From contig JAVXUO010000847.1 in NCBI GenBank assembly GCA_033065855.1, positions 166,030-230,029 of the forward strand: DNA of 64,000 nt, in the 5' to 3' direction. Under the pieces are notes generated by a model, which searched no databases, had not been told where the DNA came from, and worked only from the letters and a program-made list of their open reading frames with translations. The stretch is from Escallonia rubra (Eukaryota > Streptophyta > Magnoliopsida > Escalloniales > Escalloniaceae). Both the position numbers and the translations under genes were made by a program. Positions 712-64,000 of the stretch are shown here, in pieces. Positions within the stretch are counted from its first letter, which is position 1. Each line of letters begins with the position of its first letter.

Positions 712-1414
712 ACTTATAGAAATTTAAATCAGAAATTAAAAGGCATTAAAACTATTTTAAAATTATTCATTTTGTTAAACACAGTGCGTTACAGAAGCTA
801 TAGCAAATCAACTCTAAAATTTACCAAACTTAATCTGGGACTTCTTTATGCAATAAAAACATTACTCTAATTTTCCCAAAACATTTTCATGAGTTTTAAA
901 GATTCTAAAAGATTTTACAATTCTAAGTTTACAGAAAATATTTAAAATACATACATTTTCAGAAAATTACAAATTTTTGCCAAAAATTCTAACATAGTCT
1001 AAAGTATCATAATTTAAAATTTTAGGTGTTAACAATCACTGTACACCACTCCATGCATGCATCGTACCTAACGCTAACCCGATACCCATTAACCGCTTAC
1101 CCAAAACCCACTTCTCTTTGGAGATGGCTTCTTCCAAAAGAGGGCTTCCTTTGTTCAAACCAAAGGAACTCCTTAAGAATAAAGAGGAACTCGAAACTAG
1201 CGCTCATACCAGCTCTTATGCCTCAAACCCGAACTAGCCAGCAGCTGACGGAGTAGCCTTCGGACTTGACTTGCTCGTAGGTCAGAGCAGGAGGCCCTTT
1301 CCCCACCCTTCAGGAAGAGAAGGCTTCCAGGCTAACTAATTTTCTTTACTTTCTCTGCCAATCGCCCACAAATACACATTATACTCTCACACATACCCAA
1401 CGATCACACACATA
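296..1414. other. AT-rich intergenic DNA with a (TA)n tract
   Basis: I see no gene here. The stretch is AT-rich, holds a pure (TA)n microsatellite at about 685-712, and has only short chance reading frames. The part before about 794 may belong to the LTR remnant at the window edge. Confidence 0.6.
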
Positions 1415-2519
1415 CAAGGGTGGAGCCACTGTTGTACGAGGGGGGGCTAATGTACCCCCTTAGATTTTGAAAAAAATAAATTATATTTAGTTTTTTTTTC
1501 ATAATTTCACACTTTCTCTTCGGCTCTCTCTCTCTCTCTCTCTTCTCACCGACCGACGGCCGACTAACCTACTCACGGCGCGGCCGGCACCTCACTCCGG
1601 CAGCCACAAACCCACGACGGCATGACACCGACTGACCGACACACACCCCGTCGACACAAACCCACAACACGAGCGGCCGGTGGTGAGGTCATGATCTGGG
1701 CTATCTCTGTCTTCTAGATCTACGCCAATGGCCGACGGCCGACGGCGAGTCAGCGACGACACGGGATCTGGATCCAACCTTCAGTTCAGTCTTCACTCCA
1801 AGTCTCCAACAGTCCACCGGCGGCCAAGAACTCCGACGGGCGGCGGGCGGCGAGTCGGCGACAGGTATGTTCTGACTTCCGAAACTTTAATTTCACCTTG
1901 ATGACTTCATTGACTTGATCTTGCCAGTTGCCATCTCTGCAAAATTTGTTTGTTATCTTTTTAGTATCATAGCTCATAGCCAAAGGAAATTAGGAATGGA
2001 TTATGGATAATCTTGAGCAGGATAAATGGATAATCTTGAGCATTTAATTGATTATGGATAATCTTGATCATTGATTATGGTTAATGTTTAACATTGATTA
2101 TGGTTAATGTTTAGCATTGATTATGGATAATCTTGAGATATTGATTATGGTTAATGTTTAGCATTGATTATGGATAATCTTGAGATATTGAGTTATTGAT
2201 TATGGTTAATGTTCAGCATTGAGATATTAAGATTGATGGAGGATGGGACCCAATTGGATTGAGATATCGAATGTGTGATTTAGTTGAATGGTGGATTGAA
2301 ATTAAGTTAACGCAATAATGAAACATGACTGGAAAAGTAAAAGAATAAAATATTTTTGATTAATTAGGTTATTTGATTGATAATTGATGGATTGATATTG
2401 AAAATAAAATGTATTTTATTTCGAAAAATGCACTTTTTTTGTGCTATTTTACTTATAAAAAAATTATTAATTTCGATGTATTTTTAGCACTCCCTGGGAT
2501 GAAATCCTGGCTCCGCCCT
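1415..2519. mobile_element. hAT-like non-autonomous element
   Basis: The ends are inverted repeats: CAAGGGTGGAGCCA on the left and, in reverse complement on the right, CAAGGGCGGAGCCA. This terminus resembles the hAT-type GGGGCGGAGCCAGG ends common in plants (family knowledge). The interior has no transposase; it is AT-rich and contains several near-repeats of TTGATTATGGATAATCTTGA at about 1990-2210. I could not see a clean 8-bp target duplication, so the exact ends are provisional. Confidence 0.55.
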
Positions 2520-2887
2520 TGTACACCCCTGCTTGTATCACACATACACACGATTTTCTCACACATACACACACTACAATCACACACACAATGCATACCC
2601 GTATATATATTGCACACACATAAATACACACTCACACATATTTAAATCACCAGCCATGTCCACTGCCTCGCGGTAGTGGGTCTCCTTCTTCATCCTTCTC
2701 TTTTCATATACTCACCCACAAATATGTAAATACATATGTTCACAACCTATTCGGACCGCACCCCAAGGCCCTCTAAGGGACCCCTATTGCACGACACGTC
2801 ACCCGCTTGTCAGTCAAAATTGCTCAACATCATTAGTCGGTCAAAACGCTCCGTGCCTCAAGCATCAGGACGGCAATCAAACTCAAA
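2520..2887. other. CA-rich simple sequence and unassigned DNA
   Basis: CACACATACACA-type simple sequence fills about 2535-2640, followed by unassigned DNA. CA-rich sequence also precedes the hAT-like element at about 1390-1412, so the element may have split one CA-rich tract. No gene is visible. Confidence 0.5.
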
Positions 2888-3090
2888 GTGCAGATTCCCC
2901 CCGAGGGGTCGGCCACCCCCCTAAGAAGGGGATCGGCCACACCCCTGAGAAGGGGGTCGGCCACCTTCTTTGGAAGGGGGTCAGCCACCCTCCTTGGAAG
3001 GGGGTCGGCCACCCTACTTGGAAGGGGGTCGGCCACCCTCTTTGGAAAGGGGTCGGCCACCCTCTTTCGGAGGAGGGTCGGCCACCCCTG
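2888..3090. repeat. 24-bp minisatellite
   Basis: About eight imperfect copies of a 24-bp unit built around GGGGTCGGCCACC plus a TTGGAAG-type segment. Because 24 is a multiple of three and the unit lacks stops in several frames, open frames of 8-residue repeats (for example GSATLLGR on + and VADPLPRR on -) appear on both strands. They are by-products of the repeat, not genes. Confidence 0.85.
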
Positions 3091-4319
3091 TCTTTGGGGG
3101 AGGGAACCTACTTGCCGCTACTATCAACTCACGCAATGCATTCTGTAATGCTCACTTATCACCAGTGATCGCGTGACGCCCGTTGTCGCCCGCACATCGT
3201 TGTCGCAATAACCGTCACTCACGGACGCGTATCGTCGTCTAGGTATCATGTCGCGACACTCGTCTCCGCTCTTGTATGGCATCTTCATAATACATGCATT
3301 GGTACCAAGTCTCGCAACGGGGATGGGCTCACAACCCTAAGGCCATTGTCGGCACGATCAGCCGGGGGCTCCAGCCCTTGCCAGCACAATCAACCGGGGG
3401 CTCCGGCCCTCGCCAGCACAATCAACCGGGGGCTCCGGCCCTCGCAGCAGGATGAGCTCACGACCCCGAAGCCATCACCGGCACAATCACCCGACGGGCT
3501 CACAGGGGGCTCTGCTTATGGTGCTCCGGCACGAGGACCCCTCGCCACGGACTCTGAGTATTGAGCTGTGAGCATGGTCGCTCATGTTACCATTGATCAT
3601 CGACACCGCTAGGACAATGACCCCCAGGTCACTCCGGGACGGGAGCAGGTCCTCGGAGGGCATCGCGCCTAGCCCGCCTGACAGTTGGCTACAAGGGCAA
3701 CCCTCACCGCTGTCAGGATCTCCGCGCGTCTCTTGACGCATCTCGTGGGATTCAGTAAGGGCTTGGACCGGAGGCTGGGGCAACGGGCTACTCTGACCAT
3801 GCTACCGCGGTGTGGTCAGTCTCCTCGAACAGGCAGAAGGATGCTGTAAGGGCAGGGCAACACGAACTCGGGGACAGGCAATTCAACGGATAATCAATAC
3901 TCTCGGACCCCCATCGACGACGTGTCACTCCCGGTGGACGACAAGTGTCGGCTGATGACACGTGCGCATTTGTGCCTTTATATAGTGGACTTTGGAGCTT
4001 ATTTGAACACTTCTCTCTCATTTGACATTTTCACTTTCTCTCTCTAAAACTTATTCTCTCTGGATTTCTAGTGAGAGAAACACATTTGGACTCCTGACAT
4101 CTGACCCTTGACGCTGCACCCTTGACACGGAAAATCGACTGCCGGCCCTGTTCGTCGTCACCCTGCCTGCGCAGCGCTGCCAGCCCTCGCGACCTGCCTA
4201 GGGAGCCTTGCTCTCAGCCCTTACTCCATCCTTGATGTCTCCCACTTTGCCTTCTTGGAAGCTGATTCAGACTGCATCCTTTGTGACACTTCTACGTGGC
4301 AACGAACCCTTTTTCCTTG
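3091..4319. other. GC-rich retroelement-like (LTR-like) region
   Basis: No coding domain is recognisable. About three copies of a ~32-bp unit (AATCAACCGGGGGCTCCGGC core) lie at 3345-3445. Near 3978 a TTTATATAG box is followed by a pyrimidine-rich CTCTCT leader, as seen in the promoter part of gypsy LTRs. The base composition is far richer in GC than the surroundings, which fits a methylation-decaying retroelement only weakly. I infer an LTR remnant but found no paired copy. Confidence 0.35.
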
Positions 4320-51213: not shown

Positions 51214-51319
51214 GGGAGCTGATCCGTTGAGAGCGCTAGCAAACTGATTTAAGTTGCTAGCGCGATCTAGTCGTCCATTCTGAAAGAATGGACGGCCCAG
51301 ATCTTTTTTTTTCAAAAAG

Positions 51320-51690
51320 TTGTCAGTCGTCCGCTACCTAGTGTAGCGGACGGTTCTTTTTACCATATTGCCCCTCCCACCTTGTCCACTACACTGTGTA
51401 GCGGACGACTTTCTGGTCCTGACATGAGTCAGTCAAAAAGCTGTCCGCTACACTGTGTAGCAGACAGCTTTTTGACTGACTCATGTCAGTCAAAATACCC
51501 TCCAACAGTACTATAGTGCTCGTCCGCTACATTATGTAGCGGACAATCCAACAGACAATTATGAGAGAGGGCACATCCGCTACATTATGTAGCGGACTAG
51601 TTTTCTGACTTTTTTTCCTCTTTCTCTCATTAATTTTCTGACATTTCTTTTTCTCTCTCCTTTCTCTCATCCACTACATTATGTAGCGGA
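51320..51690. repeat. Palindromic TCCGCTACA-TGTAGCGGA array, left arm of B
   Basis: About six copies of an imperfect palindrome, consensus TCCGCTACAYTRTGTAGCGGA (centres near 51343, 51389, 51451, 51532, 51582 and 51680), are spaced 50-100 bp apart. Four related copies lie in the right arm (53115-53335). Likely transposase-binding sites (inference). Confidence 0.8.
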
Positions 51691-51910
51691 GCAGTCTTCT
51701 GACTTTTCTCTCTCTCTCTCTCATTAATGTTGACATTTCGTTTTCTCTCTCCTTTCTCTCGTCAATTTTCTCCGTCCTTTCTTTCTGACTTGTGTCTCTT
51801 TCTCTCTCTTTTCTCTCACCCACTTTTTTCTCTCCCTCATCCTCCTCTCCCCTCGTTTCTTCTCTCTCTCTCAAAATCCAACAGGCAATTATCAGAGAGG
51901 CAGACTCCAA

Positions 51911-52360
51911 TCATCTGTCAAGTTCGAGACTAAGGATGATGGTGGAAATTGAACCCATTACCACCATCGGCAAATCGAGATGGAACTCGTCGGTGAAGTT
52001 CAGGTAGGGTGAATCGAGGCGGAGCTCGTCGGCAAAGTTCTCTTCGCCCGTGATGAAGCTGATGTATTCTGAAACGCACTCCTGGATAGTTTCCTTGGCA
52101 TTTTTGGACATCTTCGCGTGAGAAGGGAGGATTTTACGCATGATTCTGATCACGTTGGCGATCGGCATGAACCGGTCTTGCTCTCGCACGGTGCACTTGT
52201 TGTCATTCGCTGCTGAGTTGTTGGTGTTGGTGTGGTTGGTCTGCTCCGGCAGCTGGATATTATCTCTAGTGGTCTCAGCCCTAGCAAGATGTGAAGAAAA
52301 AGAAGCTATAATATGTACTATATTGAAATCTTGACAACTAGTTTGTTTGGTCAGTGACAA
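51911..52360 (-). pseudogene. Captured LEC1-type NF-YB fragment
   Basis: The - strand frame contains, at residues 57-76, [20 protein letters not shown], then ILPSHAK (77-83), [20 protein letters not shown] (86-105) and a Glu. This is the first two-thirds of the histone-fold core of an NF-YB (CCAAT-binding) subunit. The VIRIMRK and EYISF words are those of the LEC1 / LEC1-LIKE group that drives embryo development (family knowledge). The core stops after ITGE and runs into unrelated sequence (repeated ADELRLD / TDEFHLD), so the last helix is missing. At the position where LEC1-type proteins have a characteristic Asp (SDDAKE), this copy has Lys (SKNAKE). Upstream, TATCCAG at about 52258 could be a captured splice acceptor. 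It lies inside a transposon and is unlikely to make a functional subunit. Confidence 0.85.
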
Positions 52361-53444
52361 GAAATCAAATTAATGGTAACAACTAATGGGAGGTGTACAT
52401 AGCCTTCTCCCCTTGACTGAAAGTGGGAAAACCTTCGTGTTCTGTGGAAGATAATCTATCTGGTAACTAATGTTATGATGATGATTTAGTTATTGCTATT
52501 ACCCCTTATGAAATAGCTCGAAGCTCTGATCAATACAATCTAAAATTGGGAGAAAATCTTTTCAACTGTTTCGATAATAGAAGAGAAGACCTCAAAAAGA
52601 TTCTAAAATGGAAGAACATGAAAAACTTTAAAAAGAGGAGGGAGGGTGGGAAGATCCAAAGCATCAAAAGAAAGAGAAGAAACTTTCTAATAAATACAAT
52701 TGAAGAAAAAGAGGACAAGGAACGATTTGAAGCTCCTTTTTTTCTTGATCCAAACAGAAAAAAATTGCCTTCTCCTAACATATTTTTCCTACGGTTTTGA
52801 GCTCACGTAATCCCATGCCCATGTTTTGGATCTTGAGGAAAGAGTTTTATTGCTTCTCTTTGTTCGTCCTGGTGCTGTTATTGTTGGAGTCTGCCCTTTC
52901 TCATAATTGTCTGTTGGACTGAGAGAGAGAGAGAGAAGAAATGAGGGGAGATGAGGATGAGAGAGAAAAAAAAGTGATGAAAGAAAAGAGAGAGAAAGAG
53001 ACACGAGTAGAAAGAAAGGAGACAGAAAAGTGGTGAGAGAAAAGAGAGAGAAAGAGAAAAAGTCAGAACATTAATGAGAGAAAGGAGAGAGAAAGAAAAG
53101 ACTAGTGCCTTATTTGTCCGCTACATAATGTAGAGGACAAGCACTATAGTACTGTTCGAGGGTATTTTGACTGACATGAGTCAGTCAAAAAGCTGTCTGT
53201 TACACAGTGTAGCGGACAACTTTTTGACTGACTCATGTCAGGACCAGAAAGTCATCCGCTACACAGTGTAGCGGACAAGGTGGGAGGGGCAATATGGTAA
53301 AAAGAACCATCCGCTACACTATGTAGCAGACGACTGACAGCTTTTTGAAAAAAAAAATCTGGGCCGCCCATTCTTTCAGGATGGACGGCTAGACCGCGCT
53401 AGCAACTTAACCCAGTTTGCTAGCGCTCTCAACGGATCAGCTCC

Positions 53445-53462
53445 ATATATATATATATATAT

Positions 53463-53496
<34 letters not shown>
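53445..53496. repeat. (TA)n between elements B and C
   Basis: About 52 bases of TA repeat, interrupted once by AGA, separate the ends of elements B and C. Both ends start GGAGCTGATCC, in opposite orientation. Confidence 0.9.
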
Positions 53497-53498
<2 letters not shown>

Positions 53499-54067
53499 AG
53501 CTGATCCACACCCACCGGTGGGAAAACATTATTTCTCCACCGAATCGTTGCTCTTAGCAGCGATTGTATAAAAAACCAAAAAGCCAATCGTAACAAAGAG
53601 TTGCGATTGGAATTATTGAAACAAAAAGCCCAATCGCAACTCTTTCTTGCGATTGACTTTTTGTCCTTTTTTTCTCCCCCCGTGGTCAACAATCACGGCT
53701 CCCCCCTCGTGGCCCCCACCCCTCCTCCAGTCAAAAATGACGGCTCCCCCACCCTTCCTTCCCCCCCTGGCCCCCACCCCTCCTTTCCCCCGTCCTTTTT
53801 TTTTTTTTTTGTGCATTCGGGCCCTCCCAAAAAATTAGAAAGAAAGAGAAAAGGGCCCCACCCCTCCACCCCCCTTGGCCCCCACCCCATTGTCATTTCC
53901 CCCTGTGATGCCCCCTTTCCCCCCGTGATGCCCCCTTCCCTCCACGTGTCATTTTCCCCCCTCCCCCCACCCCCACGTGTCATTTCCCCCTCCCCCCACC
54001 CTACTGCTCACTCACGGGCACAATTCCACTGTGTCTTCTTTCTTCTTTTTCCCTCACTTTTTCTCTC

Positions 54068-54234
54068 TATAAAATCCCTTCTCCCCGAACCATTTCTTCC
54101 AATCTCCTCATTCTCCATATCTCACCTACATAATCTCCACAACAATACAAACAAAAAAATTTTACGCTAGAAGATCGGTGGATAACCGCTAGAAGATCGT
54201 TGGATTTTTCGTCATTTTTTTCAAGTCAAAACAA
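54068..54234 (+). promoter_or_regulatory. Promoter and non-coding leader exon of the transposase gene
   Basis: TATAAAAT at 54068-54075 follows a CT-rich stretch. A leader with ACAATACAAACAAAAA-type sequence ends in the consensus donor AACAA|GTAAGT at 54234/54235. The nearest good acceptors before the transposase ATG are TTTTTTAG (57288) and TTTCAG (57295). This predicts a ~3-kb intron in the 5' UTR. Splice reading only; a transcript would settle it. Confidence 0.6.
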
Positions 54235-54399
54235 GTAAGTATTTTGAATTTTCTTATAATTCAATGTTAATTTCAAATTGTTCTTACCAATTGATTGTTT
54301 AAATTGTGTTACGCTTAAATTGTTCTTACCATAGTCTAAAATTCGTGTTTAGGGCGTCAAAATTACGTTTTTACAAATCGGGGTATTACATTCGAAAGA

Positions 54400-57230
54400 T
54401 TCGAAAATAGCGATTTTTTAGGGCGTCAAAATTAGGATTTTTCACGAATTTATAAAAAATAGCTAGAGCTAGATTTTGCCAAAGTGCAAAAAAAAGACCC
54501 TAGTTATTTTTAAAAGATCTGTATTAGGTAAAAATTTCAGATTTTTCCAAATACTGGAAACGAGTAAACTGATATGCGCAACCTTGTAACTTTGCAGTGT
54601 AATTTAAAATATCAAGCTAGCGCGATTTCGCGCGAAACTTTTTTGAGAACCCTAGGATGTTGGGAAGTTCCATTTCTCAGGAATTCGGGCCATTCCGAAG
54701 CCGTTAGCAATTTTTTTTGCCGAACGGGCTTTTAAGCGCTCGATCCGGACACCGGTTCGGGATTTTTGGGCGAAACTTCCGTAAAATACTTTTCAGATCA
54801 CGAATCAGTTCAGGAACCTTAAAATAGCATTTTAAAGCACTTTTGAGATTTTTCCTGATGCCAGGGGCATTTTGGTAATTTGTCACCCCGAGATGGGTGT
54901 TTTGGTAATTTTCCCATGTCAAGTCTTTCAAACGACTTTTTAATCCAGAAATGTAAGTAAAACACCTAAAATGTTGTTTCGAAGCTGGTTTGCGGGGCGT
55001 AATTGTCGCTAAAGGTGAAAACTTAAGTAGGCAGTTTTTTCACGAATTTATAAAAAATATCTAGAGCAAGATTTTGCAAAAGTGCAAACAAGAGACCCTA
55101 GTTATTTTTAAAAGATCTGTGTCAAGGAAAATTTTCAGATTTTTCCAAAGACTGGAAACGGGTTAACTGATACGCGCAATCTTGTAACTTCGCAGTGTAA
55201 TTTAAAATATCAAGCTAGCGCGATTTCGCGCGAAACTTTTTTGAGAACCCTAGGATGTTGGGAAGTTCCATTCCCCAGGAATTCGGGCCATTCCGAAGCC
55301 CTTAGCAATTGTTTTGCCAAACAGGCTTTTAAGCGCTCGATCCGGATACCGGTTCGGGATTTTTGGGCGAAACTTCCATAAAATACTTTTTAGATCACGA
55401 ATCAGTTCAGGAAGCTTAAAATAGCATCTTAAAGCACTTTTGAGATTTTTCCTGATGCCAGGGGGCCTTTTGGTAATTCGTCGCCCCGAGATGGGTATTT
55501 TGGTAATTTTACGGTGTCAAGTTTTTGAAACGACTTTTCAGTCCATAAATGTAAGCAAAGCACCTGAAAGGCTGATTTGAAGCTGATTGCGGGGAATAAA
55601 TGTCGCTAAAGGTGAAAACTTAATTAGACAGTTTTTCACGAATTTATAAAAAATAGCTAGAGCTAGATTTTGCGAAAGTGCAAACAAGAGACCCTAGTTA
55701 TTTTTAAAATATGTGTATCAGGAAAACATTTCAGAAATTTCCAAAGATTGGAAACAGGTTAATTGATACGCGCAACCTTGTAACTTTGCAGTGTAATTTA
55801 AAATATCAAGCTAGTGCAATTTCACGCGAAACTTTTTTGAGAACCCTAGGATGTTGGCAAGTTCCATTTCCCAGGAATTCGGGCCATTCCGAAGCCGTTA
55901 GCAATTTTTTTGCCGAACGGGCTTTTAAGCGCTCGATCCGGACACCGGTTCGGGATTTTTGGGCGAAACTTCCGTAAAATACTTTTTAGATCACGAATCA
56001 GTTCAGGAACCTTAAAATAGCATCTTAAAGCACTTTTGAGATTTTTCCTGATGCCAGGGGGCATTTTGGTAATTTGCCGCCCCGATAGGGGTATTTTGGT
56101 AATTTTACGGTGTCAAGTTTTTCAAATGACTTTTTAGTCCATAAATGTAAGCAAAGCACCTGAAAGGCTGATTTGAATCTGGTTCACGGGCGTAACTGTC
56201 GCTAAAGGTGAAAACTTAATTAGACAGTTTTTTACGAATTTATAAAAAATAGCTAGAGCTAGATTTTGCCAAAAGTTTAAAAAAGAGACCCTGGTTATTT
56301 CTAAAAGATCCGTATCAGGTAAAAATTTCAGATTTTTCCAAAGACTGGAAACGGGTTAACTGATACACGCAACCTTGTAACTTTGTAGTGTAATTTAAAA
56401 TATCAACCTAGGGCGATTTCGCGCGAAACTTTTTTGAGTACCCTAGGATGTTGAGAAGTTCCATTTCCCAGGAATTCGGGCCATTCCGAAGCCGTTAGCA
56501 ATTTTTTTGCCGAACGGGCTTTTAAGCGCTCGATCTGGACACCGGTTCGAGATTTTTGGGCAAAACTTCCGTAAAATACTTTTTAGATCATGAATCAGTT
56601 CAGGAACCTTAAAATAGCATCTTAAAGCACTTTTGAGATTTTCTGAAGCCAGGGGGCATTTTGGTAATTCGCCGCCCCGAGAGGGGTATTTTTGTAATTT
56701 TACGGTGTCAAGTTTTTCGAAGGACTTCTTAGTCCAGAAATGTAAGCAAAGCACCTGAAATGCTGATTTGAAGCTGATTCACGGTGACAATGAACCCCCG
56801 GGGACATTTCGATAATTTGTCGCCCATCGGGGGCTATTTTGCTAATTTTACATTACACAAATTTGTGCTTAAAAAACTTTTAGTTCAGGAAAGGGTGTGA
56901 GACACCCGAAAAGTTAATTTAAAGAGTGAATTCAAGAAGCTTAAAAGTCGTTTGAAAAAACTTTTCAGCTTTTCTGATGCTAGGGGGCATTTTGGTAATT
57001 CGCATTCCCGAGAGGGGTATTTTCGTTATTTTGCCCCTTTCAGTTTTTCGAATGACTGCTTAGTCTAGAAATGTAAGCAAAGCACCTGAAAGGTTGTTTT
57101 GAAGCTGATTTGGGGCGTTAGGGTGATAATGAACCCCCGGGGGCATTTCGGTAATTTGTCGCTCATCGGGGGCTATTTTGGTAATTTTACATTATACAAA
57201 ATTTCCAACAATTAGGTTTAAATAATTTTT
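54400..57230. repeat. ~598-bp tandem repeats (about 4 copies plus partial units)
   Basis: The marker CCCTAGGATGTT recurs near 54650, 55249, 55846 and 56443, a period of 597-599 bp. Each unit includes TTTTTCACGAATTTATAAAA, the palindrome region near CGCGATTTCGCGCGAAAC and TTTTGGTAATT repeats. After 56760 only diverged partial units remain (CCCGGGGGCATTTCGGTAAT). The array fills the predicted leader intron. Short frames within it (for example 55846-56064 on -) recur because the unit recurs and are not genes. Confidence 0.9.
54626..56428. promoter_or_regulatory. E2F-like palindromes, one per 598-bp unit
   Basis: TTTCGCGCGAAA occurs at 54626-54637, 55224-55235 and 56417-56428. The third unit has a one-base variant, TTTCACGCGAAA, at 55820-55831. 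It contains the plant E2F consensus (TTTCGCGC) on both strands. Role in S-phase expression is inferred. Confidence 0.6.
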
Positions 57231-57302
57231 ATTCTTATTTTATTTAATTCTATGACTTGTTGAGAATGATATAATTTTTATTTTTTAGATTTCAGTATAA
57301 AT

Positions 57303-59603
57303 ATGGATGCAACTGGAGGAAGCAATTTTTGTGAAGGTTCTGATCCACCTTACTTGGGTCAAGTTTTTCAAACACTGGACGAAGTTGAAGCATACTATAA
57401 AGCATATTCGAAAACGATGGGTTTCGGTATTAGAACTAAGACGACTAGAAAACGGGTGAATACAGATCAAATTTGTGCAAGACTATTTGAGTGTCATAGA
57501 GGAGCACCGCATGTACCCCCGGTCGTTCAGATCAGTGACGAAGGGACAACAAGACAAAAAAAACAGGACACATTTCCGGGTACCGGCTGCAAGGCCCATG
57601 TCTATGCAGTACACCGGAAAAATGAAAACCATTGGGTTGTGACGGGAGTGGAGTTGAGTCATAATCATCAGTTGATGACCCCTAGTAAGATTGGTCAAAT
57701 TCATCAACACCGAGAAATAAGCGCGGCACACAGACAACTGATTTTTACAATGGCCGGGGCTAAAATTCTACCTTCTAAGATGATGGGGATTTTCTCAAGC
57801 CAGGCTGGGGGGATTGACAAGTTGAGTTTCAACGAAGTAGACCTTCGAAATGAACTTTGTGCTCAGAAGAGAGAGTCTTTCGGTAAGAGTGATTCTCAAG
57901 CTACACTTGATCTCTTCAGGTGCCTTCAGAGTGAGAATTCTGGATTTTTCTACAGTCTCCAACTGGATGATGAGAACCGCATTAGTACTATATTTTGGGC
58001 GGACCCCCGTTCTAGAGCTGCTTACCAAAATTTTGGGGATGTTGTGACGTTTGACACCACATACCGCACCAATAAGTACTCTATGCCTTTTGCTCCGTTC
58101 ACCGGGGTGAACCACCACTATCAGTCAATCTCGTTTGGCTTTGCCCTGCTTAGGGATGAGACGGAGGAGTCATTTACGTGGTTATTTGAAACGTGGCTTA
58201 AAGCAATGTATCATATTCCTCCAAAGACCATCATCACCGACCAAGATCTGGCAATGAAAAATGCAATCGCTAAGGTCCTTCCAGATACTCACCATGGCCT
58301 GTGCACATGGCACATAAGCAACAAATATCCCGAACGGCTTCACAATGTATATGCAAACCATCCGGAATTCAAGACTGACTTTAATACATGTGTGAAGAAA
58401 TCGTTGACGGTAGACGTGTTCGAGGAGAGGTGGGCCACGTTAATGGATGACTACTATTTGCACAATCATGACTGGTTACAATCGTTGTATGAGATCAAGA
58501 CACAGTGGGTCGGTGCCTACACCAAGAAGTTTTTTGCAGCCGGAATGACTACGACCTCGAGAAGCGAAGCTATGAATTCATTCTTTGATGGGTACGTAAG
58601 CCAGTCTTCAAGTATAGTGGAGTTCGTACTAGAGATGCAGAAAGCCGTTGATAGGCAATTGTACCGTGAGAGAGAAGCCGACGCGGCTACAGCTTACAGA
58701 GAAAGGGCCATACTACTCTTTTCACCTTTGGAGGCTCATGCGGCTCAAGTCTATACCAAGGAAATGTTTAGACAGTTTCAAGATGAACTACTAAAGTCGA
58801 ATCAATATGGCATGACAAAGTTGCACGAGTATTCCACCAGAGATCTCAAGGTTTATGCTTTGACAAACGTGACGAATTTCGCCAATCCGTGCTCTTCGTC
58901 GGCTCCGAGGAACAGAAGACATTTTACCGTGGCTAAATGTATGGACACCGGGTTGGTAAATTGCAACTGTCAACTGTTTGAGCATAAATGTATACTTTGT
59001 CGACACGCGTTGAGGGTTTTGAACGCCAAGAATGCTCGTGAAATCCCTCCACAGTATATCTTGGAATGGTGGACGAAGGAAGCCAATAGAGTCCACGGTC
59101 ACATTCCTTACGTGCCCAATGTTTCAGTTGATTTCGAGCAATCTGAGCCGCTGCGATATAATCACCTTTGTAACATCATGCACGGTTTATCATTGGATGC
59201 AGCGTCAACATTTGATGGGTACATGTATCAAGTTGAAGCAGCCGCACGGGATAAGGCTAAGCATGCACAGTTTAGGATGGCATTACCAGAAAGACGGGAC
59301 ACTCCGACTACTCGGACGACTCCAGCCGGTAGATTCAATCGAGCCAAACAGCCAGTCATTGACGGCACTAGCATGCAAGGTGAGGAGGACGACATTTTTG
59401 ATCCAATTATTTCTCAAACAAAAGGGCGAAAACGAGAAATACGCATGAAGAATCCGATTGAAAAAGCAACGGGTCAAAAAAAATTGCGAAAGTGTGCGTT
59501 GTGTAATAAGATGACTGATCATGACAAGAGAAACCATTATAAAGTGTTAGGTCTCGAACCTGGCAGTATGGTCGAGGAGGACGATGATGATGAAGAGTGT
59601 TAG
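57303..59603 (+). CDS. FAR1/mudrA-type MULE transposase
   Basis: A 766-aa intact frame, with no internal stop, that should cut and join the ends of the element. Domain order: FAR1-type DNA-binding zinc region (aa ~22-125; VEAYYKAYSKTMGFGIRTK, CKAHVYAVHRKNENHWVVTG, ELSHNH). Next the MULE transposase RNase H-like core (aa ~245-425), with candidate catalytic acids Asp251 (TFDTTY), Asp313 (TDQD) and Glu422 (SRSEAMNSFF), and the CTWHI motif. Next a SWIM zinc finger (Cys554-x-Cys556 ... Cys566-x-His568). Last a C-terminal CALCNK zinc-knuckle-like motif and an acidic tail EEDDDDEEC. The ATG at 57303 directly follows a predicted splice acceptor. Host FAR1/FRS genes share these domains, but position between repeats inside element C and the neighbouring PMD-Ulp1 gene argue for a transposon gene. 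Confidence 0.92.
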   Translation: MDATGGSNFCEGSDPPYLGQVFQTLDEVEAYYKAYSKTMGFGIRTKTTRKRVNTDQICARLFECHRGAPHVPPVVQISDEGTTRQKKQDTFPGTGCKAHVYAVHRKNENHWVVTGVELSHNHQLMTPSKIGQIHQHREISAAHRQLIFTMAGAKILPSKMMGIFSSQAGGIDKLSFNEVDLRNELCAQKRESFGKSDSQATLDLFRCLQSENSGFFYSLQLDDENRISTIFWADPRSRAAYQNFGDVVTFDTTYRTNKYSMPFAPFTGVNHHYQSISFGFALLRDETEESFTWLFETWLKAMYHIPPKTIITDQDLAMKNAIAKVLPDTHHGLCTWHISNKYPERLHNVYANHPEFKTDFNTCVKKSLTVDVFEERWATLMDDYYLHNHDWLQSLYEIKTQWVGAYTKKFFAAGMTTTSRSEAMNSFFDGYVSQSSSIVEFVLEMQKAVDRQLYREREADAATAYRERAILLFSPLEAHAAQVYTKEMFRQFQDELLKSNQYGMTKLHEYSTRDLKVYALTNVTNFANPCSSSAPRNRRHFTVAKCMDTGLVNCNCQLFEHKCILCRHALRVLNAKNAREIPPQYILEWWTKEANRVHGHIPYVPNVSVDFEQSEPLRYNHLCNIMHGLSLDAASTFDGYMYQVEAAARDKAKHAQFRMALPERRDTPTTRTTPAGRFNRAKQPVIDGTSMQGEEDDIFDPIISQTKGRKREIRMKNPIEKATGQKKLRKCALCNKMTDHDKRNHYKVLGLEPGSMVEEDDDDEEC

Positions 59604-59715
59604 GGTTAATGTTTCAGTTGTATAACGAATAACTTTTATAATGTTTAAATTTGTGATTTGGTTTGTTGAATCTTTAATTTGTGATTTGGTTTGTGGATTA
59701 TTGATATTTTTGGAA

Positions 59716-60790
59716 GGGCCTATTCGCGCACACTTTAGCGCCCAATTCATAGCTTCCGAAAAATCTTATAAATTTTTTTGTTCATTGCACCTCAGGCACG
59801 CTAGTTAGCCCATTCGTAAGAATTTCGGCGAAAAACGAGACACGTTATTTTTTGGGTTATCCTATGAAGGGCCTATTTGGGCACACTTTAGAGCCCAATT
59901 CATAACTTTCGAAAAATCTTGTAAATTTTTTTGTCACTTTTTTTTCGCTCATTGCACCTCAGGCACGCTAGTTAGCCCATTCGTAAGAATTTCGGCGAAA
60001 AACGAGACACGTTATTTTTTGGGTTTTCCTATGAAGGGCCTATTCGGGCACACTTTAGGGCCCAATTCATAACTTTCGAAAAATCTTGTAATTTTGTTTG
60101 TCACTTTTTTTTCGCTCATTGCACCTCAGGCACGCTAGTTAGCCCATTCGTAAGAATTTCGGCGAAAAACGAGACACGTTATTTTTTGGGTTATCCTATG
60201 AAGGGCCTATTCGGGCACACTTTAGGGCCCAATTCATAACTTCCGAAAAATCTTGTAATTTTTTTTGTCACTTTTTTTCGCTCATTGCACCTCAGGCACG
60301 CTAGTTAGCCCATTCGTAAGAATTTCGGCGAAAAACGAGACACGTTATTTTTTGGGTTTTCCTATGAAGGGCCTATTCGGACACACTTTAGGGCCCAATT
60401 CATAACTTCCGAAAAATCTTGTAAATTTTTTTGTCACTTTTTTTTCGCTCCCTGCACCTCAGGCACGCTAGTTAGCCCATTCGTAAGAATTTCGGCGAAA
60501 AACGAGACACGTTATTTTTTGGGTTTTCCAATGAAAGGCCCATTCGCGCACACTTTATCGCCCAATTCATAGCTTCCGAAAAATGTTGTAATTTTTTTTG
60601 TCATTTCTTTTTTGCTCATTGCCCCTTAGGCACGCTAATAGGCCATTTCTATGAATTTCGGCGAAAATCGAGACAAATAATTTTTTTGATTTTCCTATAA
60701 AAGGCATATTCGCGCACACTTTATCGCCAAATTCATAGCTTGCGAATGTACATTTTTTTAAGGGGTTCTTTGCTCATTGCACCTTAGTCA
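59716..60790. repeat. ~165-bp tandem repeats between the two convergent genes
   Basis: About six and a half copies of a 160-166 bp unit starting GGGCCTATTCGGGCACACTT and containing CACCTCAGGCACGCTAGTTA, AATTTCGGCGAAAAACGAGA and CACGTTATTTTTTGGGTT. Unit starts lie near 59716, 59876, 60045, 60208, 60372, 60537 and 60697. Central copies are nearly identical and outer ones diverged, the usual pattern of unequal exchange. The array overlaps the predicted 3' ends of both genes. Confidence 0.9.
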
Positions 60791-60792
60791 CG

Positions 60793-63655
60793 CTAGTTAG
60801 GATAATGGTAATGAAGGCATCTAGCTTCATTCTTTTTCAGCTCCCAGGCTATCCTATACCTAAACGTCAAGGCAGCCTTCCTAGTCCACGACGTATATTT
60901 GAGCACCTCCGAGCGAGCAATGTAGTCCATGTACTTGAGGACGTAAATCCCGCAATCGTGACTGTTATATTGCTTTGGTCGGTCCTGTATCATCACGACC
61001 GTCCAAGGCTCTACCGTCGAATTCCTGGTGATGGATTCCCCCGAATAATCTCGGCACGCTAGCGAGAAGATAGTAGTCTGCATCCAACAATAAAAAAGGT
61101 CATCAAGCCTATGTTACAATAAGAATATACTATGAGCCAAGGTCAACCGATAAAAACTAACCACTGCAGTGATGTATTCGCTGTACATCTGTGCCAGCGA
61201 CCGCCCAGGAGAGTCCTCCCTTAGGCTATCGTATATGTTGACCTGTCTGTTCGCTGGAAACTAATAGGAACCAGTGGTTTTCATGATGGCAAGGTATCAT
61301 GACAAGGTTCGCATGAGCAGCGTGACATTGATAGTCTGCGTTCAACAGGGCTAACACGTTTCCAGCTGGTTTCCACTTACCCATGCCTGCCCCTCGCCTC
61401 CTCCATTCTGTTAACTCCCTCATGCTGGTCACCATTAATGTGACAAAATAAGGGGGATACATGTTAAGCTTCAAATCTTCGCACTGGTTATAACGTAGCT
61501 CTCTAATCCGGAGCAGATCTATATAAGCGTTCATGACAAAATTTGAAATATCTGTCTCCGGTGCCAACATTCTCACATCCGCGTGACCTAGGAATGTTCC
61601 AAGAGGAAAGTCTGAGGTATCGACAGGCTCAGGCCCGAAGTAGTGCCGGTCGATCCAATCCCGCTTGTTCGGCCTCAATGGCTTTGTCGCTTGTCCTTTA
61701 TCCGACCGGATGCTTGGGCGCGAGGCCTGGATTCCTACTTGGGTCACCTGACTCTGGCGCTGAGAGTCGTACGTGTCAGGAGGCAAGCGACTAGACGGCT
61801 CCCAGAATTCCCTCTGGGGCAAAGACGCGTCAGGAGGCAAGCGACTAGACAGCTCCCACACCACACTCTGGGGCACAGAGTCGTACGCGTCAGGAGGCAA
61901 GCGACTAGACGGCTCCCCCAGGCCCTGACTCTGGGGCTGAGAGCCGTACGCGTCAGGAGGCAAGCGACTAGACGGCTCCCCTTGGTAACCCCGGTACGCA
62001 ACACTAAAGTTGTGAAGATCAGTCTTGTACCTCTCAATGGAGCTCTTGAGACTGTCAGGCGCATGCGCGACATACCAGTCAAACCGCTCGAGCTGCTTGA
62101 ACACCTCAGTGCCCTGGTCAACCTAAAAAACATGCATAGAAAAATCACCGTCATCATTTCAGGCATGGTCGAGAAGGTGCGCAAATAAATATTGAAACAA
62201 CACTAGGTTGACTTACAATGCTCAATGCCCAGAACTGGTCATAGACCTCACGTGGCGCATACGATTTGGTCCTCACTTGGGAAGGGCGATTCACCCTCGT
62301 GCGCGTCACCTTGAGAAACCATTGCAGGTACTCCTCAGTACTGGTGCCGTCGTCCTTGAGCGATACAAGGCTACCATACGTTTCTTGCCAAGTATTCCAC
62401 TGTTGCACCTCGTCGCTCAGCAAATTCAAGGCATCAGGCACCTCAAAATTCGGACCTCGACCGCTCCTGTATGGCCGCATGTCTGGGGTTTTGGTATCCC
62501 TTGTAGACAGCCAGCTTGTTTCATAGCTCGATCGGGCATCTGAAACTCACATACTTCGAAGTGAATAAGTGGCACCCGAACCAAACCTGCCAGCACGTAC
62601 GACACCGGAAGTTGCCAACACCACTCATCCAACCGATGCATCACCTTCCCATATGGCTGCCACGTCACCTGGGATGCATCCATCATATCTAGTTCCCCCC
62701 GATAGAACATTAGATGGTGGTGAGGGTCTACCCGTCTCCTCCGTTTGGTCGTAGGCCCCCAGGCCCACACCCTAGGCCACGTCTCATCGGAATCAGCTAC
62801 GGGCTGTGGACGACCCGTGGGTAGCCTCTCGTAAGACCAAACCTGTGAACGCAAACATTATATGGAATTAGTAATTAATCACGAATATATTGACACGTCA
62901 ACCAAGAATATAAATGCTCAAACCTGTAACAGAGTGATGCAGGCGGCAATGGACTTGGCACCCTTTCTCGTAGCTTTGTGCAATGCTCGATATAGGTGCG
63001 CAAGGACAGCTGAACCCCACGAATACGAGTATACCTCCTCAAGATCCTCCAAGAACACCATATACTTCGGATGCACCGTGTTTTTTTTTTGCGTCGGAAG
63101 TAATATAGATCCAGTAATATACAAAAGGAATGCCTTCGTATACGTCACCAAATCATGAGGAGTGTATTCATCCGGTAGCTCGCCGTACTGCTCTCTCAGC
63201 CATTTAAGTTTTATGCCGTTGGTTGTAAGAGCTTCCCTCGGAATTCCCGGAAAATACTGCCTAGCCATCTTCGCTATGGATGCAGACGTTTTACTCGAAG
63301 TAATGGGTCTGCCGTGACATGGGATTCCAAGTATAAATCCGACGTCCTCTAATGTAATAGTCATTTCACCAAACCGGAAGTGAAATGAGTTCGTCTCGCC
63401 CCTCCATCGTTCAACTAGAGCGGATATAAGGCAATCGTCGTGCCGAGACCAAATCCCGCAATCGGTGAACATGGTCAAATTTTGACGGTGTAATAGTTGT
63501 ATTTGTTCCTCGTTCAGTACCCACTCGTCGAGGTGACTTGTGCTTTGAATTGTTTCCAAAACACCCCTATCGACACCGTCAAATACGTGCCTCGCGACGT
63601 GGTCATCGTCATCGTATAGGATTGATGTATCATGAGGTCCAGGGTTGAAATCCAT
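60793..63655 (-). pseudogene. PMD-Ulp1 fusion gene of the MULE (two frameshifts)
   Basis: Four exons on the - strand: 63655-62924, 62842-62217, 62122-61162, 61077-60793, with GT-AG introns. The N-terminal half is a plant mobile domain (MAIN/MAIL1-like): MDFNPGPHDTS start, FGEMTITLEDVGFILGIPCH, then VWSYERLPTGRP across the exon 1/2 joint and VPLIHFEVCEFQMPDRAMKQ. A linker has four copies of EPSSRLPPDAY-type repeats. The C-terminal half is a C48 Ulp1/SENP SUMO protease with His (HHENHWFLLV), Asp (VNIYDSLRED), Gln (QDRPKQ) and Cys (SHDCGIYVLKYMDYIA) all present. Exon 2 is one base short in a C-run near 62488, and exon 3 is one base long near 61262, between the catalytic His and Asp. As read, the product stops after the PMD. 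Sequencing error in the C-run cannot be excluded. Confidence 0.85.
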
Positions 63656-64000
63656 ATCTGTAAGAACAAAATATAATCGTAAACCAACTTAGCGTCCATA
63701 ATATTTACATTCCAAAACTGTAACTGAATCGTTAACCTAGCTTACCAACGCATTAGCAATAGTCATTAAATCATTATTTTAATGTATTAAAACCATTCCT
63801 CACTTCCCACCACTCCGAACGCTTAATAACGCTAGTTCCCTAAAATTTAGCGCCAACGTGGTTATTTAGCAATATCCCCCCCCCCCCCCCTCCCGATGGC
63901 CGCTACACCCCCAACACTTCAAAACCGCTTTAAAACCACTTTTTAAATGTATTACATCAATTATATACCAAATATTTCCTCAGAATAGTTTAAGGGGGAA
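63656..64000. other. Upstream region of the PMD-Ulp1 gene
   Basis: On the - strand the start codon is preceded by TTACAGAT, a possible splice acceptor, so a non-coding leader exon may lie beyond. A C-tract sits at 63868-63881. No terminal repeat of element C is reached. Confidence 0.5.

Follow-up and report, generated by a model that had tools for sequence, protein, structure and literature searches.

A (TA)n-targeting FAR1-type transposon family of Escallonia rubra with a convergent PMD-Ulp1 gene, a candidate for self-targeted anti-silencing

Does a plant transposon that encodes a SUMO protease turn it against the silencing of its own DNA? The question is raised by a Mutator-like element (MULE) that begins at position 53497 of a 64,000-nucleotide stretch of the Escallonia rubra genome (G000:C1411:166030-230029, hereafter the window), in which a first-pass annotation had paired a complete mudrA/FAR1 transposase with a convergent gene joining a plant mobile domain (PMD) to a SUMO protease. 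Relatives were sought in the 566,129,122-bp assembly (3222 contigs) and are named here by contig (C) or locus (L). Our reading, which we hold at about an even chance, is that these elements form a (TA)n-targeting FAR1-type MULE family whose second gene encodes a self-targeted anti-silencing protein, composed of a PMD of predicted VANC21-like fold and an Ulp1 domain that would remove SUMO. A VANC/KIU-like anti-silencing module within a TA-targeting FAR1-type MULE appears to be the most economical account, with de-SUMOylation as its likely effector.

Both genes named in the annotation were recovered. The transposase (57303..59603, plus strand) is a 766-aa open reading frame uninterrupted by stops, with an N-terminal FAR1 (E-value 1.2e-14), a MULE (8.2e-33) and a C-terminal SWIM (7.5e-05) domain, the arrangement of FAR1/Jittery-type MULEs; that label derives from domains alone and not from a transposase tree. 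It contains TFDTTY, ITDQD and TSRSEAMN, which we take to supply the catalytic D, D and E. Convergent with it, on the minus strand, lies a gene of four exons with GT-AG borders. Exon 1 (62924..63655, 244 aa) encodes the N-terminal half of the PMD (7e-45), exon 2 (62217..62842) its remainder, exon 3 (61162..62122) a linker and the start of the Ulp1 domain (Peptidase_C48, 1.9e-09), and exon 4 (60793..61077) the C-terminal part of that domain, with QYNSHDCG and the stop codon. The linker contains a coding tandem repeat (61751..61981, minus strand, unit about 54-63 bp) for an RLPPD peptide, the number of which varies between copies through in-frame insertions.

The closest relative of this gene, L029 on contig C202, is 99.5% identical over the coding sequence and encodes an uninterrupted protein of 869 residues, with the PMD at 72-421 and a Peptidase_C48 domain at 649-853 that carries the His-Asp-Gln-Cys site of Ulp1/SENP SUMO proteases. 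Relative to L029, the window copy is missing 4 nt from exon 2 (at about 62485, the GT/AG borders being kept) and 5 nt from exon 3 (at about 61258), breaks that the first-pass annotation overlooked. The four catalytic residues it had recognized (H, D, Q and C) are all encoded, but they are split over frames, since the two deletions place H736 and D753 in different ones. Each deletion comprises several bases and is not a single-base homopolymer change; an assembly error may account for them.

Contig C1411 ends at the last base of the window, and the right end of the window copy lies outside both, so that membership of the PMD-Ulp1 gene in the element was judged from relatives. Among 12 elements read with paired terminal inverted repeats (TIRs), three (C1041, C2092 and C2239) have transposase, PMD and Ulp1 matches between their ends, three others (C1008, C1174 and C233) contain fragments of both the transposase and the PMD-Ulp1 gene, and the remaining six have only one of the two or neither. 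All three parts were also matched at four of five further loci fetched from one TIR, one of the four with transposase fragments only. A PMD-Ulp1 gene lying outside the element is rejected at the family level, because TIR-bounded relatives enclose PMD, Ulp1 and transposase; nor is the gene confined to copies unrelated to those with a transposase. In the C1041 element (11,934 bp), the transposase aligns to that of the window without gap or stop and the PMD-Ulp1 gene carries one single-base insertion. The transposase of C2092 appears chimeric and its PMD-Ulp1 gene is broken; in C2239 the transposase is truncated and the PMD-Ulp1 gene has decayed. At L029 the PMD-side end is visible, with a slightly mutated TIR at base 207 beside (TA)n.

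Copies of the gene are numerous and some remain open. At least 150 copies of PMD exon 1 reach at least 92% identity (the best 150 of 4336 candidates scored), and at least 65 of these have an Ulp1 exon behind, with 138 of the listed Ulp1 matches taken in. About 50 score almost alike at 93% identity to the query, suggestive of a recent amplification of a single subfamily. With the partial genes L010, L025 and L034 excluded, five of 17 PMD-Ulp1 genes assessed are free of frameshift and stop (L024, L029, L030, L032 and L039); L038, with two nearby insertions summing to 66 nt, would be a sixth. H736, D753, Q811 and C817 are all in register in 13 of the 17. Co-evolution of the two genes, which the annotation had proposed to examine, was addressed in the seven elements that hold both: distances between transposases correlate with those between PMD-Ulp1 genes (r 0.95, a value reached in 84 of 5040 permutations), mainly through one deep split between two subfamilies. 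Separately, the transposase at L016 (C2092:52590-62589, 1300-3596) is 87% identical to that of the window over residues 1-390 and 49% beyond, as if chimeric. The last PMD-Ulp1 exon aligns poorly to other copies at L036 (C2041:3128-6250) and is only 71-74% identical at L013, L015, L018, L020 and L021; 3' ends may therefore have been swapped between subfamilies.

The predicted fold of the PMD, in its exon 1 part, points to how the second protein might act: it matches VANC21 (9lnj), the only clear structural match, and is thus predicted to be of the VANC DNA-binding type. By annotation, the protein does not join the VANC/KIU proteins defined by DUF1985/DUF287, as its DUF1985 match lies below the cut-off (29.1 versus 35.1 bits) and DUF287 gave no row in the domain search. 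Searched by sequence with either the PMD profile or the exon, the PDB returned low-complexity or chance rows and no VANC21 match. The structural model suggests that PMD-Ulp1 works like VANC, though it is not filed as VANC. The first-pass annotation had taken MAIN and MAIL1 as the model for this PMD; these proteins do act in silencing (PMC5418596; here and below, published systems are described from the openly available parts of the papers cited), but VANC21 appears closer by predicted fold.

A protein acting like VANC leads one to expect repeated target motifs in the element. Fourteen GGGGYATTTTGGTAATTY motifs, counted at up to three mismatches, lie in one orientation in front of the transposase (54864..57187, plus strand), with seven pairs exactly 30 bp apart, and are candidate recognition sites. 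Such sites occur in 12 of 13 elements, in which 30 bp accounts for 38, and 29 bp for three, of the 44 spacings in the 18-120 bp range, and are absent from both strands of window positions 1-50900; in C1041 the motifs of each arm are directed inward. A gapped comparison of 16 modules gave 0.87-0.89 for motif columns and 0.58-0.65 for flanks, values biased by selection of sites on both motifs, whereas a fairer ungapped comparison with the partner unselected gave 0.56 versus 0.32-0.38 in the flanks, with 52 of 69 partners at three mismatches or fewer. Alternative words were less regular than GGGGYATTTTGGTAATTY. They likewise had few or no background sites, with a single site for one of the words across window 1-50900.

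We propose that the PMD would bind the element's own DNA at the arm motifs, that the Ulp1-type domain, if active on SUMO, would remove it from silencing factors on that DNA, and that silencing of the element would be lost as the outcome; the window copy would supply transposase and sister copies PMD-Ulp1. De-SUMOylation of silencing factors by a transposon-encoded protease, as suggested in the annotation, stays a plausible idea. The fully specified form of this proposal, in which the PMD is a VANC-type sequence-specific DNA-binding domain through which TA-targeting FAR1 MULEs bring a SUMO protease to paired, 30-bp-spaced arm motifs and strip SUMO from the silencing machinery, is more tentative, and we consider it possible but rather less probable than the general reading.

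Several features recall VANDAL elements of Arabidopsis and their VANC proteins (PMC5735166, PMC10398659). In both cases a MULE encodes a second protein, the predicted fold here matching 9lnj; short motifs in a single orientation occupy non-coding tandem arrays; part of the protein varies in length and contains tandem peptides; and terminal arrays differ between subfamilies. Unlike VANDAL, the Escallonia family has a FAR1-type transposase, (TA)n targets and long TIRs; its protein has a PMD in place of an annotated DUF1985/DUF287, and GGGGYATTTTGGTAATTY is by eye unrelated to the VANDAL motif YAGTATTAY. How VANC erases silencing after binding was an open question in 2017 (PMC5735166). In KAONASHI elements (KI-MULEs), KIU unites VANC and Ulp1 (PMC13317346), so that an anti-silencing-type domain joined to Ulp1 and encoded opposite to the transposase has a precedent (PMC13317346, PMC2528002); with a mudrA transposase and no TIRs, KI-MULEs differ from the Escallonia family, which combines TIRs with a FAR1-type transposase and a PMD. 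Jittery-like MULEs with Ulp1 have been reported in grapevine and melon (PMC2528002) and are similar in their Jittery-type transposase and downstream ULP1 region; that description, on which the comparison rests, mentions no PMD in its available part.

The PMD itself, often antisense to the transposase as in Escallonia, is listed for the MUDR, MDR, MUDRAVI2, monocot and VANDAL-type MULE groups, and 'PMD and/or DUF' for half of the VANDAL group members (PMC6446971; for PMD-bearing MULEs see also PMC5418596). In the available part of the same survey, no PMD is listed for the FAR1-bearing Jittery group, its plant members are given a single ORF, and neither Ulp1, C48 nor a protease is mentioned. The statement of the first-pass annotation that Ulp1-bearing and PMD-bearing MULEs are known separately was fair, if incomplete, as both the Jittery-like Ulp1 elements (PMC2528002) and the antisense and VANDAL PMDs (PMC6446971) are in print. 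MuTAnT/TAFT elements (PMC4486113) share insertion into TA microsatellites, a Jittery-like transposase and long modular TIRs, but AutoMuTAnT measures 4.9 kb with one ORF, compared with up to 11.9 kb and two genes here. A MULE combining PMD and Ulp1 was not found in the open-access literature searched, and as far as that literature reaches the joint architecture and the candidate paired motif appear to be new. The predicted PMD-VANC21 match is new only within the same reach, from which subscription journals are mostly absent, and may already be in print.

Protein-database matches suggest that the pairing may not be confined to Escallonia. The best transposase match (P0001, 45%) and a PMD protein (P0123, 41%) both lie on contigs 7311 long, and FAR1 transposase and PMD are therefore probably together on one contig. 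P0124, a Heracleum protein (Apiaceae), is a PMD-C48 fusion, and carrot and celery proteins make up many of the next transposase matches. From these matches, the pairing of transposase and PMD-Ulp1 may be old in campanulids. A homolog search limited to residues 600-869 gave 429 candidates and none at E 0.001, which from a word-based tool is no proof of absence. By eye, the PMD proteins P0127 and P0123 end by reading into an apparent intron after exon 2, so that truncated PMD-Ulp1 genes may hide among the PMD proteins annotated in carrot and other plants.

A number of observations weigh against an anti-silencing role. A shared fold shows no function, the window's own PMD-Ulp1 gene is broken, and the agreement of gene distances owes most to a single split. 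The GGGGYATTTTGGTAATTY counts describe rather than test, because the word was picked from those very elements, and C2239 keeps a decayed PMD-Ulp1 gene yet has no GGGGYATTTTGGTAATTY at up to three mismatches. Among 19 young 596-bp units the conservation of the motif pair is unexceptional, being matched by a third of all sliding pairs; motif and 30-bp spacing may therefore merely reflect descent from one module, and the 16 modules compared do have a common origin. The evidence on selection is weak: summed nonsynonymous over summed synonymous divergence (dN/dS) across 66 pairs of 12 copies is 0.50 for the PMD, 0.68 for the linker and 0.69 for Ulp1, and between fully open copies about 0.5-1.3 for the PMD and about 0.3-1.1 for Ulp1. 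The linker exceeds 1 in many comparisons and falls below it in others, and the transposase gives 0.25-1.16 overall; all these figures are weak tests, because the copies are young and partly dead.

Such values would also suit a captured host gene (transduplication) amplified by MULEs as passenger cargo without use, which we regard as about half as probable as anti-silencing. Ulp1 has often been captured, in scattered MULE and CACTA families (PMC2528002), 12 of the 17 copies are broken by strict count, and Ulp1 dN/dS reaches 1.1 between open copies. Against mere cargo, several copies retain their introns, splice sites and open frames. When more diverged copies are compared, the PMD has a dN/dS of about 0.4-0.7, similar to the value of about 0.5 for the transposase relative to the diverged C1212 copy. 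The probable FAR1 transposase/PMD contig and the Apiaceae fusion also suggest an association elsewhere. An unlikely alternative is that PMD-Ulp1 aids transposition, by trimming SUMO from the transposase or partnering it, with the motif arrays as transposase-binding or promoter sites. The two genes travel together, the motifs precede the transposase of the window copy and, in C1041 and C2092, the PMD gene (though in C1212 they lie behind the transposase), and the non-autonomous C1166 and C1007, without a match to either gene, retain them; but the motifs begin at least about 0.8 kb inside the ends and not in the outer TIR, the predicted fold points to a silencing antagonist, and the plant Jittery group is listed with that single ORF (PMC6446971). 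Least probable, and quite improbable in our view, is that the PMD promotes repression and the gene damps its element. MAIN and MAIL1 are genic PMD proteins required for silencing (PMC5418596), a point that also counts against anti-silencing; they are, however, of the PMD-C class, the same paper raises, as speculation, an anti-silencing function for PMDs captured by MULEs and terms the PMD role undetermined in 2017, and VANC21 is the sole clear match of the model.

The remaining features concern the ends and arrays. The outer left TIR, GGAGCTGATCCACACCCACCGGTGGG (53497..53522, plus strand), directly follows a (TA)n tract of 26 units (53445..53496, unstranded, 96% matches), in agreement with the TA-repeat target first annotated. 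GGAGCTGATCCACACCCACCGGTGGG has 129 genome sites at up to two mismatches (reversed control, 0), and of 29 distinct family ends, 28 have (TA)>=4 within 40 bp on their outer side; among 2550 stretches of 40 bp sampled from window 1-51000, 13 contain it. The outer part of the left non-coding arm (53497..57250, plus strand, inner limit approximate) recurs inverted at the opposite end in relatives (roughly 2.5 kb, 95-96% identity in C1041), giving TIRs at both ends at the family level. Insertion is TA-repeat-flanked, as in MuTAnT/TAFT-like MULEs, and (TA)n on both sides masks any 8-9 bp target-site duplication. The two internal arrays annotated were confirmed as a 596-bp array of 3.9 copies (54438..56784, plus strand, Tandem Repeats Finder) and a 167-bp array of 5.9 copies between the convergent genes (59773..60746, unstranded); the coding RLPPD repeat is a third. 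The 167-bp unit is also present in C1041, C2092, C2239, C485, C869, C919, C202 and C1212, and was not reported for C1008 in the repeat comparison of family elements. Terminal arrays differ by subfamily (596-bp units versus about 25-bp units in C2092 and C2239), the central 167-bp unit being common. A second TIR element of 2.23 kb (51215-53444, GGAGCTGATCC...GGATCAGCTCC) lies between TA tracts and adjoins the (TA)n of the MULE, with which it has its terminal 11 bases in common; the 30-bp-spaced motif is absent from it. A similar end (GGATCAGCTCC, then (TA)n) adjoins the right end of the C202 copy (L029, about 170-206).

For the wider family of PMD proteins, the predicted fold match suggests that PMDs may read DNA in the manner of VANC, and the Ulp1 fusion makes de-SUMOylation a candidate for one effector step. 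If the fully specified form of the proposal is true, MAIN and MAIL1, which serve host silencing, would share one fold family with the anti-silencers of transposons.

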